Positions 3,021-32,854 of a stretch of 64,000 bases of DNA are shown piece by piece (position 1 is the stretch's first letter; every line of letters begins with the position of its first letter). Position numbers and translations under genes: made by a program. The stretch is from Melioribacteraceae bacterium (GTDB taxonomy: Bacteria; Bacteroidota; Ignavibacteria; Ignavibacteriales; Melioribacteraceae). Below the pieces are notes generated by a model that was not told the DNA's origin, ran no database searches, and worked only from the letters and a program-made list of their open reading frames with translations. The stretch lies in the NCBI GenBank assembly GCA_011525875.1, contig WYBN01000012.1:124001-188000 (forward strand), given 5' to 3'.

Positions 3021-3024
3021 AGTA

Positions 3025-3474
3025 GAATTGACGAATTTAACGCATTAGCGAATTTTTCGAAATAATCAGAATGAATTATAAGAACTTTGAAGAATTACCG
3101 ATATGGCAGCATGCAAGAGAGATTGTAAATTTTATATATAAAATAATTGATGGCAATGAAGCACTTAAAAGGAACCAGAGATTAACAAATCAGTTAAAAG
3201 GTGCAGGGATATCAGTTATGAATAATATTCCGGAAGGATTTGATTCAGATAATAATGTAGAGTTCATCAGATTTTTGAAATACTCATAACGATCTTGTTC
3301 AGAAGTAATGTCGATGAGTTACATATTAAATGATATTTATGATATTAAAAAAGATTCAAAAATATTGTATAGTAAAGCATTAGAAGAAAGAAAACAGATT
3401 AAAGGATTTATAAAATACCTTAAATCAGTCAAGAAATAATCCGATAATTCGCAAATCCGTAAATTCACTAATTC
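3025..3474 (+). repeat. IVS-like element B: long imperfect inverted repeat
   Basis: The left arm (about 3025-3058) and the reverse complement of the right arm (3441-3474) align over about 30 bases with roughly 24 matches, including blocks GAATTTA, ATT and GCGAATT. Each arm is itself made of degenerate CGAATT-type units. The arms enclose the stop-interrupted four-helix gene, starting 46 bases before its ATG and two bases after its stop. This is the clearest of the four arm pairs. Confidence 0.6.
3071..3439 (+). pseudogene. Four-helix bundle gene, copy B, broken by one in-frame stop
   Basis: The frame opens with MNYKNFEELPIWQHAREIV and carries the family's LTNQLKGAGISVMNNIPEG centre. It meets TAA at 3287-3289, then continues in the same frame as RSCSEVMSMSYILNDIYDI and so on to a stop at 3437-3439. 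Read through, it is 122 residues plus one stop, the same length as copy A. The family has a hydrophobic residue where the stop lies, so a single TTA-to-TAA change explains it. It could be a real nonsense mutation or a base-call error. If only the first part is made it would be a 72-residue protein missing the last two helices. Confidence 0.8.
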
Positions 3475-3510
3475 CAAAATCAAGTTCATCCTCTCATAAA
3501 ATAATTGCGC

Positions 3511-3562
3511 GTGTCATCTCGAATCAGACATTTTCCAACCGGGGGCGAAATCTAAGAGATTG
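3511..3562. repeat. Possible dispersed intergenic repeat (REP-like)
   Basis: The string GTGTCATCTCGAATC near 3511 followed by CGAAATCTAAGAGATT near 3546 has the look of the dispersed TGTCAT...GAAATCT elements common between genes in Bacteroidota-type genomes. Only one copy is seen here, so this rests on recognition of the pattern alone. It lies between elements B and C. Confidence 0.3.
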
Positions 3563-3567
3563 AAATA

Positions 3568-4070
3568 ATGGTTGTATGAATGTATGAAAGGATTTTAAGT
3601 TGGATGACAATTTACTAAATAAGAACAAAAACATTAATCGTGGTTTTAGAAGTCTTGATGTTTGGAAAGAATCGGTTGAGTTATTTGCAGTTGTCAAAAC
3701 AAAAATCGATGAGTTAAAAACGATTTCATTTAAAGTAAAAGCGCAAATTGAAGACTCAGCATATTCAGTTTCTAGTAATATTGCGGAAGGTTATTGTCGA
3801 AGACATTTAAAGGAAAATATTCAGTTTCTTAATATTGCTTTAGCATCATTAGGAGAAAATTATTCACAATTATTTACATTAACAAATAGTGGGATTGTTG
3901 AATCAACGTGGTTCGAAGAATTTGATAAAATTCATTATCAATTAGAAAACAAATTGATCAAAATGAATAAAAGTTATGTTGAGAAATTAAAAAATAAAGA
4001 AAATTGGAATGGTGATTATGTTGTACGAGAATTAATTGAAAATTATGATTCTAAATAAACATACAACCAT
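3568..4070 (+). repeat. IVS-like element C: inverted repeat flanking a four-helix gene
   Basis: A perfect 11-base inverted repeat, ATGGTTGTATG at 3568-3578 and its complement at 4060-4070, brackets the four-helix gene and begins one base after that gene's stop codon. The right arm runs on into quasi-tandem CCATCCATACACCCATACACCC sequence to about 4094, and the left arm into GAATGTATGAAAGG, so both arms are built of similar degenerate units. Confidence 0.6.
3600..4058 (+). CDS. Four-helix bundle protein (S23/IVP family), copy C
   Basis: A 152-residue member of the four-helix-bundle family, longer than copy A at both ends. The N-terminal FRSLDVWKESVELF and the central SAYSVSSNIAEGYCRR are diagnostic. 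The start is a TTG at 3600: no in-frame ATG precedes the conserved region, an in-frame TGA lies at 3585-3587, and AAAGGA at 3588-3592 gives a well-placed ribosome site. The gene lies between the wbpB-like and wbpD-like genes. Function is unknown. Confidence 0.82.
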   Translation: MDDNLLNKNKNINRGFRSLDVWKESVELFAVVKTKIDELKTISFKVKAQIEDSAYSVSSNIAEGYCRRHLKENIQFLNIALASLGENYSQLFTLTNSGIVESTWFEEFDKIHYQLENKLIKMNKSYVEKLKNKENWNGDYVVRELIENYDSK

Positions 4071-4096
4071 CCATCCATACACCCATACACCCATTC
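4070..4096. repeat. Short quasi-tandem CCAT/ACACCCAT repeat
   Basis: Repeating CCATCCATACACCCATACACCC units lie immediately right of element C and directly before the ribosome-binding region of the wbpD-like gene. They extend the right arm of the element. Low-complexity arms of this sort accompany all four four-helix genes here. Confidence 0.6.
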
Positions 4097-4117
4097 TTCG
4101 ATCAGCAAAGGTAATTT

Positions 4118-29784: not shown

Positions 29785-30780
29785 ATGATAGTTGTTAGAG
29801 CACCATTTAGACTGCCTTTAGGAGGTGGGGGAACAGATTTACCTTCTTATTATCAAAAGTATGAGGGCTTTCTCATTACTGCTGCTATTAATAAGTATAT
29901 GTACATTAACATTAATGAGCCGGCAATCATTAATAAAATAAAAATTAATTACAGCAAGGTTGAAGTAGTAGAAATAAATCAAATAAAAGAAATAAAACAT
30001 GAAATTGTTAAAGAAGCATTAAATTATCTTAAAATTAAGCGTCCTCTTGAAATATCTTCAATGGCTGATTTATCAGCCGGCACAGGGATGGGTTCTTCAA
30101 GCTCATATACTGTTGGATTGTTAAAGGGTCTAAACCAAATGTTAAGGAGATACATCTCCATTCAAGAACTGGCAGAAGAAGCATGTAAGGTTGAAATTGA
30201 TTTAATAGGAAAGCCAATCGGGAAGCAGGATCAATACGCTTCAGCATTTGGGGGTATCCTACAGCTTGAAATTGATACCCTTGGGAAAGTAACAGTAACG
30301 CCTCTTAAATTAGAACAAGAGACCATATATGAACTTGAAAATAGATTGATGATGTTTTATACAAATATTGAACGCGACGCTAATGTTATATTAAGCGAAC
30401 AAAGTTCAAAAGCCAAGTCTGATGATAACGCTGTGATTGAATCAATGCACAAAATTAAAGAAATTGGAATCGAAGTGAAGAAGAAATTATTGGAAGGAGA
30501 TGTATGTGCTTTCGGTGAATTATTAAATGAACACTGGCTTACAAAAAAAAATGTCTCAAAAAAAATGAGTAATTCTAAAATTGATGATTGGTACGATCTT
30601 GCAATGAAAAACGGTGCGTTGGGAGGTAAAGTTATGGGAGCCGGCGGGGGAGGTTTTATGCTTTTTTGTGTTCGTAACGGTAAAAGAAAGCATTTAAGAA
30701 AAACGCTTGAAGATGCCGGACTAAGATATATGAATTTTAAATTTGACTGGGAAGGCGTGAAGACGTTGGTTAATATTTAG
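29785..30780 (+). CDS. hddA: GHMP kinase, D-glycero-D-manno-heptose 7-phosphate 1-kinase (HddA-like)
   Basis: A 331-residue GHMP-family kinase. PLGGGGTDLPSYY at residues 9-21 is motif 1, GTGMGSSSSYTVGLL at about 104 the ATP loop, and MGAGGGGFMLF at about 286 motif 3. The sequence form matches HddA, which phosphorylates D,D-heptose 7-phosphate at C1 in the GDP-heptose pathway. The gene starts a second sugar module with hddC-, gmhB- and gmhA-like genes downstream. AGAAGGGTAAG before the ATG gives an adequate ribosome site. Element D separates it from the next sugar gene. Confidence 0.8.
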   Translation: MIVVRAPFRLPLGGGGTDLPSYYQKYEGFLITAAINKYMYININEPAIINKIKINYSKVEVVEINQIKEIKHEIVKEALNYLKIKRPLEISSMADLSAGTGMGSSSSYTVGLLKGLNQMLRRYISIQELAEEACKVEIDLIGKPIGKQDQYASAFGGILQLEIDTLGKVTVTPLKLEQETIYELENRLMMFYTNIERDANVILSEQSSKAKSDDNAVIESMHKIKEIGIEVKKKLLEGDVCAFGELLNEHWLTKKNVSKKMSNSKIDDWYDLAMKNGALGGKVMGAGGGGFMLFCVRNGKRKHLRKTLEDAGLRYMNFKFDWEGVKTLVNI

Positions 30781-30801
30781 GAAGCAGTATGATAGTAGGT
30801 T

Positions 30802-31260
30802 GTAAGTAGTAAATAGAAAAAGAAACAAAAATATTGGGAAATTGGTAAAGCAAATTGCAAAGGTTTTAGAGATTTAATAGTTTATCAGTTAGCATATCAA
30901 CTTGCTATTGAAATTTATGAAGTAACAAAAACATTTCCGAAAGAAGAAAAGTATTCATTGGTCGACCAAATCCGTCGTTCTTCAAGATCAGCAACAACAA
31001 ATATTTCAGGGTCATGGAGTAGACGAAAATATCCCAAATCATTTGTAAGTAAATTAATTGATGCAATTGGTGAAGCTGATGAAACAACAGTGTGGTTGGA
31101 TTTCTCAAAAGATTTTGGTTACCTTGAAACAACTAAGTATAATTCTCTTTTTCAAAGATATGTGGATGTTTGTAAAATGTTAAACAGCATGATTAACCAG
31201 CCTGAAAAGTTTTGTTATTGATTAAATCGTTCTACATACTTCTTACTATATACTACTTAC
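30802..31260 (+). repeat. IVS-like element D: inverted repeat flanking a four-helix gene
   Basis: GTAAGTAGTAAATAG at 30802-30816 matches the reverse complement of 31246-31260 at 14 of 15 positions. The arms surround the fourth four-helix gene and sit 21 bases after the hddA stop and 15 bases before the epimerase start. The flanking DNA continues with TAGTA/TACTT-type units on both sides. Confidence 0.58.
30817..31221 (+). pseudogene. Four-helix bundle gene, copy D, without a usable start codon
   Basis: The frame is open from 30817 to the TAA at 31219-31221. It contains the family's N-terminal FRDLIVYQLAYQLAIEIYEV, then FPKEEKYSLVDQIRRSSRSA and NISGSWSRRKYP, followed by the later helices. No in-frame ATG or GTG exists between the upstream TAG (30814-30816) and the conserved region; the first TTG (30958) lies well inside it and would make an 87-residue fragment. 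An ATT start at 30841 is conceivable. The likeliest reading is a decayed gene that has lost its start. Confidence 0.65.
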
Positions 31261-31275
31261 AGTAAATTATTTGAC

Positions 31276-32214
31276 ATGAAAAAAAAAGTACTCATCACCG
31301 GTGTTGCCGGATTTATAGGTTCAAACCTGGCTAACAGATTGTTAGCTGAAGGCGGATATAGAGTAATTGGAATTGACAATCTTTCTTACGGTGTAAGAGA
31401 ACAAATACCTGTAGAGGTCGAATTTTATGAGTTAGATATTAGAGACACAGCGATTTATAATCTCTTTACAAATACAGACTTTGTATTTCATTTCGCTGCA
31501 AAGAATTGTATCAGCGATTGTCAGCTTGATCCTGTCGAAACAGCCGATATAAATGTAAGAGGTACGGTAAATGTTTTGGAAGCCGCAAAAAGAGCCAATG
31601 TAAAGAAAGTTATTTATGCAGAATCATCAGCTCTTTATGAAGGTAGTAATCGGTTGCCTACTCCAGAGTCTGAAATAAATCCCCAGTCATTTTATTCAAT
31701 TAGTAAATTATCTACAATGTATTTTGCGGATGCATATACAAAATTTTATAATCTTAAAACAACGGCACTTAGATACTTTTGTGTTTATGGCCCAAGACAG
31801 GATTATAGAAGAACAATCCCTCCTTTATTTTCTGCTTTTATCATAAAACTACTGAAGGGAGAAAACCCAATTATATACGGCACCGGCGAAAAGCGAAGAG
31901 ATTTTATTCATGTTGATGATATAAATGATTTTCATATTCAATGTATGAAAGATGATCGGACAACCGGTAACGTTTATAACCTTGGCAGCGGTTATAATTA
32001 TTCGGTTAATGATATTTATAATACGATTTCATCGTTACTGCATTCTGATATTAAACCAATCTATAAACCTGATTTACCCGGTGAAGCTTTTGAAAACCTT
32101 GCCGATATTTCAAAAGCAAAAACGATTGGCTGGAATCCCAAAATCGATTTGGAACAAGGACTGAAGACATCAATAGACTTTATTAAAAATGAAATTTCAA
32201 AAGGAAATATCTGA
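31276..32214 (+). CDS. NAD-dependent sugar epimerase/dehydratase (extended SDR)
   Basis: A 312-residue extended SDR. TGVAGFIGSNL at residues 7-17, IDNLSYG at about 36, and the catalytic Tyr-x3-Lys in YSISK with Ser in AESSALYEG. It resembles UDP-glucose 4-epimerase and GDP-heptose-modifying enzymes. RDFIHVDDI and PDLPGEAFENLADISKAK are typical of the superfamily's C-terminal domain. Context in the GDP-heptose module suggests it acts on GDP-heptose or supplies a related nucleotide sugar. The exact reaction is not predictable from sequence alone. Confidence 0.78.
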   Translation: MKKKVLITGVAGFIGSNLANRLLAEGGYRVIGIDNLSYGVREQIPVEVEFYELDIRDTAIYNLFTNTDFVFHFAAKNCISDCQLDPVETADINVRGTVNVLEAAKRANVKKVIYAESSALYEGSNRLPTPESEINPQSFYSISKLSTMYFADAYTKFYNLKTTALRYFCVYGPRQDYRRTIPPLFSAFIIKLLKGENPIIYGTGEKRRDFIHVDDINDFHIQCMKDDRTTGNVYNLGSGYNYSVNDIYNTISSLLHSDIKPIYKPDLPGEAFENLADISKAKTIGWNPKIDLEQGLKTSIDFIKNEISKGNI

Positions 32215-32254: not shown

Positions 32255-32482
32255 ATGTATAGAATAAAATTTGACAGGCATGCTAAACGTAGAATGAAGT
32301 GGCGAAGAATTTCAGAGGAAGAAGTTGAAATGACAATAATGCAGCCTGATTATACAGAAGATACAGTAAAGAATCGAAAAAATTCTTATAAAAAAATCAA
32401 TGAAAGACTTATAAAAGTAACATATATTCAGATAGAGGAAGAAATAGTCGTTATTACTGTAATTGATAAATCAGAATCATAG
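32255..32482 (+). CDS. DUF4258 domain protein (possible toxin of a TA-like pair)
   Basis: A 75-residue basic protein: FDRHAKRRMKWRRISEEEVE is the DUF4258 signature (a His-Ala-x2-R-M start and an E-x2-V helix), followed by beta strands ending VVITVIDKSES. DUF4258 genes frequently lie next to DUF2283 genes, as here, and the pairs behave like toxin-antitoxin modules by layout, but biochemical function is not established. It is unrelated to the heptose genes around it and looks like an accessory insertion. Confidence 0.78.
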   Translation: MYRIKFDRHAKRRMKWRRISEEEVEMTIMQPDYTEDTVKNRKNSYKKINERLIKVTYIQIEEEIVVITVIDKSES

Positions 32483-32494
32483 AAAAGGATAATT

Positions 32495-32710
32495 ATGAAA
32501 ATTGAATATAGCAAAAGTGCAGATGCTTTATATGTTTATTTTAAAGAAGCTTTTGTAAGCTTTACAAAAGAAATTCAGGAAGGTATTAATTTAGATTTTG
32601 ATGAAAATAACCAAATTATCGGCATTGAAATACTAGATGCCAGTGAAAGATTTAGTAAAACCGATATAGCAAATATAAATATAGAAAACCTGTCAGAGGT
32701 TTTAGATTAA
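32495..32710 (+). CDS. DUF2283 domain protein (partner of DUF4258 gene)
   Basis: A 71-residue acidic protein with the complete DUF2283 pattern: KIEYSKSADALYVYF, then GINLDFDENNQIIGIEILDA. It starts 12 bases after the DUF4258 stop, with AAAGGATAAT as a ribosome site. By analogy with other small pairs the acidic member could bind the basic one. The 144 bases that follow hold short direct repeats (TGACAATCAATGACAATTGAC at 32827-32847) and no gene. Confidence 0.8.
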   Translation: MKIEYSKSADALYVYFKEAFVSFTKEIQEGINLDFDENNQIIGIEILDASERFSKTDIANINIENLSEVLD

Positions 32711-32854
32711 TATTTTACAAAATTATTATAAAACAACCACCAAATCTTCGGATTAATTCAAACCTGACTGAAACCAGTGATTGACAATTTCTCACACAGT
32801 CATTTTTGGGAATAAACAAGCTACTAATGACAATCAATGACAATTGACTAATAA

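Follow-up and report, generated by a model that had tools for sequence, protein, structure and literature searches.

An inserted four-helix-bundle gene between inverted heptamer arrays at an hddA-epimerase junction, probably an ageing copy of a recurrent intergenic element

A junction between two heptose genes of a Melioribacteraceae bacterium carries an insertion that consists of an open frame for a four-helix-bundle (4HB) protein of the S23p type and two inverted arrays of a degenerate heptamer. The junction was ancestrally overlapping or near-seamless, and elements of other types occupy it in other genomes. We consider it reasonably probable that the insertion belongs to a widespread class of mobile elements, small and intergenic, in which a 4HB oligomer would recognise the arrays as the ends of the element and copies without an ORF would be moved in trans. 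The window analysed here is a 64 kb stretch of a 2.28-Mb assembly that is 81% complete (G000), and all positions below refer to it.

The whole element spans about 30784-31262. Upstream of it lies an ORF for an hddA-like D-glycero-D-manno-heptose 7-phosphate kinase (29785-30780, + strand; NF049969, E = 3.5e-62, under the equivalog cut-off) that ends in the stop codon TAG at 30778-30780, and downstream lies a gene for an NAD-dependent sugar epimerase (31276-32214, + strand). The left arm (30784-30816, + strand) is the degenerate heptamer array GCAGTAT-GATAGTAG-GTTGTAAGTA-GTAAATAG, and the right arm (31230-31260, - strand) is an inverted heptamer array with the reverse complement GTAAGTA-GTATATA-GTAAGAA-GTATGTA-GAA. 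Between the arms, the frame at 30817-31221 (+ strand) belongs to the S23p/23S_rRNA_IVP family, with 108.6 bits for PF05635 (cut-off 33.8), 104 bits for TIGR02436 (cut-off 24) and the PDB relatives 2gsc and 2rld; its likely coding part runs from 30841 to the TGA at 31219-31221. The sequence-only reading had described a match of 14 out of 15 positions around a four-helix-bundle frame, and re-reading the sequence confirmed it: GTAAGTAGTAAATAG (30802-30816) and GTAAGTAGTATATAG, the reverse complement of 31246-31260, differ at a single position. The arms are longer than these 15 bases and have a period of 7, with a lag-7 self-match of 0.65 over both arms. Their local inverted score of 14.5 was equalled by 3 of 1000 dinucleotide shuffles, and these shuffles together with the class-wide arm statistics given below rule out a chance palindrome as the source of the terminal inverted repeats. 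The right-arm pattern AGTADRNAGTADRNAGTADR has a single match in the genome, as does its backward control.

Four PF05635 copies are present in the whole assembly and all of them lie inside the window, which agrees with the earlier count of four. The other three (1715-2014, 3089-3403 and 3651-3956) are situated about 27 kb away, and each has inverted arms of its own, in the regions 1610-2090, 3021-3520 and 3520-4117, with units like GAATTAA, GAATTTGC and TGTATGGA. These arms were equalled in 3, 0 and 0 of 1000 dinucleotide shuffles, respectively, where the first copy passes only with the longer of the two flank windows tried. The copy at 3089-3403 is broken by an internal TAA.

To see the site in relatives, 391 genomes of the class were scanned with hddA. 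An uninterrupted hddA-epimerase junction, which the sequence-only reading had named as a check on insertion, was found in six genomes (L377, L378, L379, L380, L382 and L384), where the two genes overlap or lie a few bases apart (for example, AATATATGATTAACG). In five genomes, including that of the window, the same junction is filled with a 4HB gene and its arrays, so the proposal of an inserted and recurring element holds. G008 carries another 4HB clade with arms of the GTGAATT type, G222 another 4HB with arms of the GCATAGG/GAGCAGA type and G273 another 4HB with arms of the GGGGACT type, and these filled sites look independent, as both clade and arms differ. The 4HB of G053 belongs to the clade of the copy studied here (60% identical) and has AGTARGN arms; as G053 and G000 share 80-83% identity in the aligned parts of hddA, a single insertion that travelled with the module may account for both. 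A further junction (L383) contains an array without an ORF and nothing else, and that of G170 (L381) contains a 231-bp spacer with no recognised gene. Filled and empty orthologous sites, as expected of a mobile element, thus occur at the hddA-epimerase junction, and they recur at the G044 and G051 sites described below. No target-site duplication was seen by eye at the hddA-epimerase junctions, where the element ends are blurred by tandem units, and the element contains no known transposase domain. The junction between the epimerase gene and hddC is a second invaded junction of the same operon: it is near-seamless in L377, L378 and L380, and in the window (32255-32853) a DUF4258-DUF2283 gene pair occupies it along with a TGACAAT array, which is one-sided. 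The hddA gene itself has purine-rich array inserts of about 200 bp near residue 210, apparently in-frame, at about the same site in G273 and G053 (L388, reverse complement 2130-2300; L386, reverse complement 2140-2330).

Across the class, a degenerate heptamer is repeated in each arm, and the two arrays are inverted relative to each other. In a set of 67 copies (63 from relatives and the 4 in the window), paired flanks scored 17.5 and mispaired flanks 9.5, with 53 copies exceeding the 95% control. The corresponding scores were 18.5 and 9.75 for 77 loci across phyla (40 exceeding the control) and 15.7 and 8.6 for 14 cyanobacterial plasmid copies (7 exceeding it); a significant inverted arm pair was absent in 14 of the 67 and 37 of the 77 copies. 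The arms match themselves at lags of 7, 14 and 21 at 0.60, 0.57 and 0.53, compared with 0.32 in shuffles, and 7 is the dominant period in 76 of 102. A scan for arrays with a strict threshold overlooks the short arms of this window. The cyanobacterial plasmid loci (L368, L366, L365 and L370) place a 4HB gene with heptamer arrays between cas6 and cas4 in Anabaena sp. 90 and Pseudanabaena galeata, between cmr2/cas10 and cmr3 in Picosynechococcus PCC 7003, and between both ribonucleotide reductase subunit genes in Nostoc edaphicum. The arrays of Pseudanabaena (L366) are direct instead of inverted.

The word repeated in the arms follows the clade of the protein. Because a 4-mer cosine is partly confounded by composition (the measure was weaker with composition controlled, 0.40 vs 0.32), it was replaced by phase-free heptamer profiles with a column-permuted null. 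For 78 copies, compared as non-independent pairs and without a tree, the excess of arm similarity over this null rose from 0.00 below 30% protein identity to 0.05 at 55-60%, 0.09 at 60-65%, 0.13 at 65-75% and 0.17 above, and none of 5000 permutations of the arm labels reached the observed mean. The copy studied here fits this pattern, with period-7 inverted arrays and a word that matches its clade: relatives with at least 55% protein identity rank first in arm similarity (p = 1.7e-8), in a cross-phylum set where its clade is over-represented because this protein served as the query for collecting the set. The arm units of these relatives are AGTAAGC, AGTAGGC or AGTATGG, and the AGTARGN word is shared with 55-70%-identical relatives in WOR-3, Deltaproteobacteria, Omnitrophota, Nitrospirae and Bacteroidota, among others. 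That this copy has another arm sequence, as the earlier reading noted, is therefore not arbitrary: it has the word of its clade. As the arm word follows the clade, protein and arms belong together class-wide, even if the protein of this particular copy fails.

Arrays without an ORF are common. G044 and G051 belong to the same genus and have flanks that are about 92% identical. At site G051a, GGTATTA arrays with a 4HB gene in G051 correspond to an ORF-less hairpin of AAGGCTGAA units in G044; at site G044a, AGTCACGG arrays with a 4HB gene in G044 correspond to ACACGGAT arrays with a GxxExxY gene (PF13366, 137 bits) in G051. Arrays and their cargo, whether a 4HB gene, a GxxExxY gene or none, have thus been exchanged at the same sites, and the collinear stretch contains several further junctions with differing array families. 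The G051a arms match dozens of other places. AGTARGN arrays with no nearby 4HB gene, often one-sided, are found in G053 and G038. The suggestion that the structure may not need the protein gains support here, as ORF-less arrays occupy orthologous sites. Genes for GxxExxY (PD-(D/E)XK-like) proteins lie inside similar inverted arrays (L163:1661-2326, L312-L331), with units of the CACAGAG/CACGGAT type that are common to most copies and CACAGA as the commonest flank 6-mer, and together they form a parallel system. In the mispairing test, 3 of 20 GxxExxY arm pairs exceeded the 95% control, which is inflated because most copies share one motif. Gene-less inverted arrays with short loops also lie between co-directional genes of G048 (L118:3540-3610, L130:2230-2385).

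The closest known relatives of the element are the intervening sequences (IVSs) of 23S rRNA, which encode S23p in, for example, Coxiella burnetii and Leptospira. Both have a PF05635 protein, a length of about 430 bp, terminal inverted repeats with an ORF in the loop between them, and a tendency of that ORF to decay. Unlike the 23S IVSs, the element lies between protein genes, has inverted heptamer arms with a clade-linked word and shows no sign of RNA-stem selection; its neighbours are hddA and the epimerase gene, and an Rfam scan of the window finds one tRNA and no rRNA. In Coxiella, tandem heptamers (GACAGAT) stand just before the S23p start in numbers that vary by strain, and the IVS is removed by RNase III via its terminal stem (PMC4990558). 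Heptameric intergenic repeats have been described in Xanthomonas (GGGAATC, about 70 inverted pairs per genome) and Nostoc (GGGGATT), and the prominent repeats are not common to different species (PMC4692102). Like the arms studied here, these are degenerate heptamer arrays in intergenic positions near the neighbouring 5' ORF; unlike them, they were described as possible G-quadruplex repeats, and the main text of that paper makes no mention of four-helix, 23S or XCC0516 and does not link the repeats to a protein clade (PMC4692102). The S23p of X. campestris (PDB 2gsc) is a homologue of the protein studied here, and it is on this homology and on that paper that a link to Xanthomonas would rest. 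The literature searched yielded no link between four-helix-bundle genes and inverted heptamer arrays. A related fold family is that of Avd from diversity-generating retroelements, where the protein scored 30.9 bits for Avd (NF033474, cut-off 80) and 34.9 bits for bAvd (PF22296, cut-off 40). These scores fall short of membership, and unlike Avd systems the element has no reverse transcriptase in G000 (no PF00078 match in this 81% complete assembly), G014, G048 or G049. Pairs of autonomous transposons and MITEs likewise combine gene-bearing and gene-less copies with common inverted repeated end motifs and filled or empty sites; they differ from the present elements, which have no known transposase, no visible target-site duplication and a strong orientation to the upstream gene.

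The sequence-only reading had noted a frame with no ATG, GTG or early TTG, and this is indeed the case: the first in-frame candidates are ATT at 30841, ATA at 30877 and a late TTG at 30958. Starts were compared at 80 named loci, among which the close relatives of the protein come from Ignavibacteriales and other Bacteroidetes MAGs. Most close relatives have an ATG at query residue 9 (exactly so in L233, L234, L241, L243, L245, L246, L259, L264, L265 and others) or 1-2 residues away, and the alignment of N-termini puts the ATT (30841-30843, + strand) exactly at this residue. This alignment makes it probable that the normal start of the ORF is lost; a base missed in the assembly may also underlie the absent ATG. 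In addition, a Glu that is conserved at 99% is replaced by Gly (NISGSW vs NI(A/S)EAW). Among about 155 copies listed in relatives, 16 are interrupted by stops, which, with the broken copy at 3089-3403, indicates that decay is common in the class. In G053, the synteny partner, the start ATG seems to lie within an array unit, AGTATGG, and with its position at the edge of the array the 4HB start is a vulnerable part of the element. The start and the lost Glu support the earlier suggestion of an ageing insertion with a decaying ORF, although the frame is open throughout. The arms of this copy are still recognisable. With ATT in place of ATG and Gly in place of Glu in the NI(S/A)EA motif, this copy would produce little or no active protein, and it is probably ageing. 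A possible but less favoured reading is an intact copy with translation from the ATT; its start-less appearance would then reflect a limit of annotation, and the element would not be decaying. ATT is a rare but genuine bacterial start codon and is aligned with the ATG of the homologues, no stop interrupts the 126 codons counted from it, and the two deviations at 36 near-invariant columns are typical of a set with a mean of 1.7. With an uninterrupted frame and a single near-invariant residue gone, this copy may still yield protein by initiation at the ATT. However, ATT starts are inefficient and ORFs of the class decay frequently, and the loss of the 99%-conserved Glu besides the ATT favours an ageing copy.

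A further sense of "IVS-like" would be that the arms act as RNA. The upstream gene is co-oriented with the element in ratios of 56:0 and 58:4 in two sets (114 vs 4 together) and the downstream gene in ratios of 56:5 and 58:6; opposite-strand neighbours are seen in Nostoc edaphicum and Calothrix. This strand bias, the complementarity of the arms and the RNase III removal of the Coxiella IVS through its terminal stem (PMC4990558) would fit a scheme in which paired arms in the operon mRNA are cut by RNase III, so that hddA and the epimerase gene end up on separate messages; it would then be the stem that is kept, and not the protein. We regard this as unlikely. Arm mismatches that are compatible with G-U pairs are no commoner than incompatible ones in either of two data sets (45:44 and 46:45), which does not support selection on an RNA stem, and we set such selection aside. 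One-sided arrays are common, one copy has direct arrays, some copies oppose the strand of both neighbours and the window has no rRNA. As there is no lean towards G-U, the strand bias more likely arises because insertions are tolerated behind a stop codon and the element is expressed from the operon; the element may still have some RNA role. Still less probable, in our view, is that slippage during replication and fold-back copying created the arrays in spacers free of constraint, and that the 4HB genes are simply small genes of an ordinary kind that came to lodge there by chance. Arrays do exist without any gene, their borders lie at stop codons and polymerase slippage has been proposed for bacterial heptamers (PMC4692102). 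Yet independent slippage does not predict an arm word that follows the protein clade across phyla, nor does it fit with seamless junctions that become filled with a gene and both arms together, or with the lag-7 period common to most copies.

We thus favour a mobile element. At this locus it entered the junction of hddA and the epimerase gene in the orientation of the operon and is therefore read together with the operon. Much as a transposase finds repeated end sites, the 4HB oligomer would recognise its own element by the heptamer arrays at either end, and it might guide copying or insertion together with a host nuclease or polymerase; ORF-less arrays would be derivatives moved in trans. We know of no catalytic domain in the 4HB family, and no transposition was observed. 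Avd homology had suggested a reverse transcriptase acting in trans. No RVT_1 match (PF00078) was found in G000 (81% complete), in G014 with its 31 4HB copies or in the single-contig genomes G048, G049 and G007 with 19, 7 and 4 copies; as element-rich genomes lack it, a reverse transcriptase is not required. A phage origin was also rejected, with no match in 50,697 phage records.

Members of the class occur in many phyla, no mechanism has been described for them, and the copy studied here is a modest and probably ageing example. We tentatively propose, at less confidence than for the element itself, that specificity in a large, undescribed class of bacterial mobile elements, with clade-specific heptamers in inverted arrays at their ends, is conferred by 4HB (S23p-like) proteins. 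The 23S rRNA IVSs, the Xanthomonas and cyanobacterial heptamer repeats and the present element would be members or derivatives of this class, with GxxExxY genes and CACRGA-type arrays as a parallel system. If this is true, the role of the S23p-type IVS protein and the abundance of heptamer repeats in bacterial spacers become one question, that of whether each 4HB clade recognises the heptamer of its own arms. Operons, CRISPR operons included, are split by the elements at stop-start junctions, and turnover is seen between species whose flanking sequences are about 90% identical; the elements would then be a major overlooked source of change in bacterial spacers.
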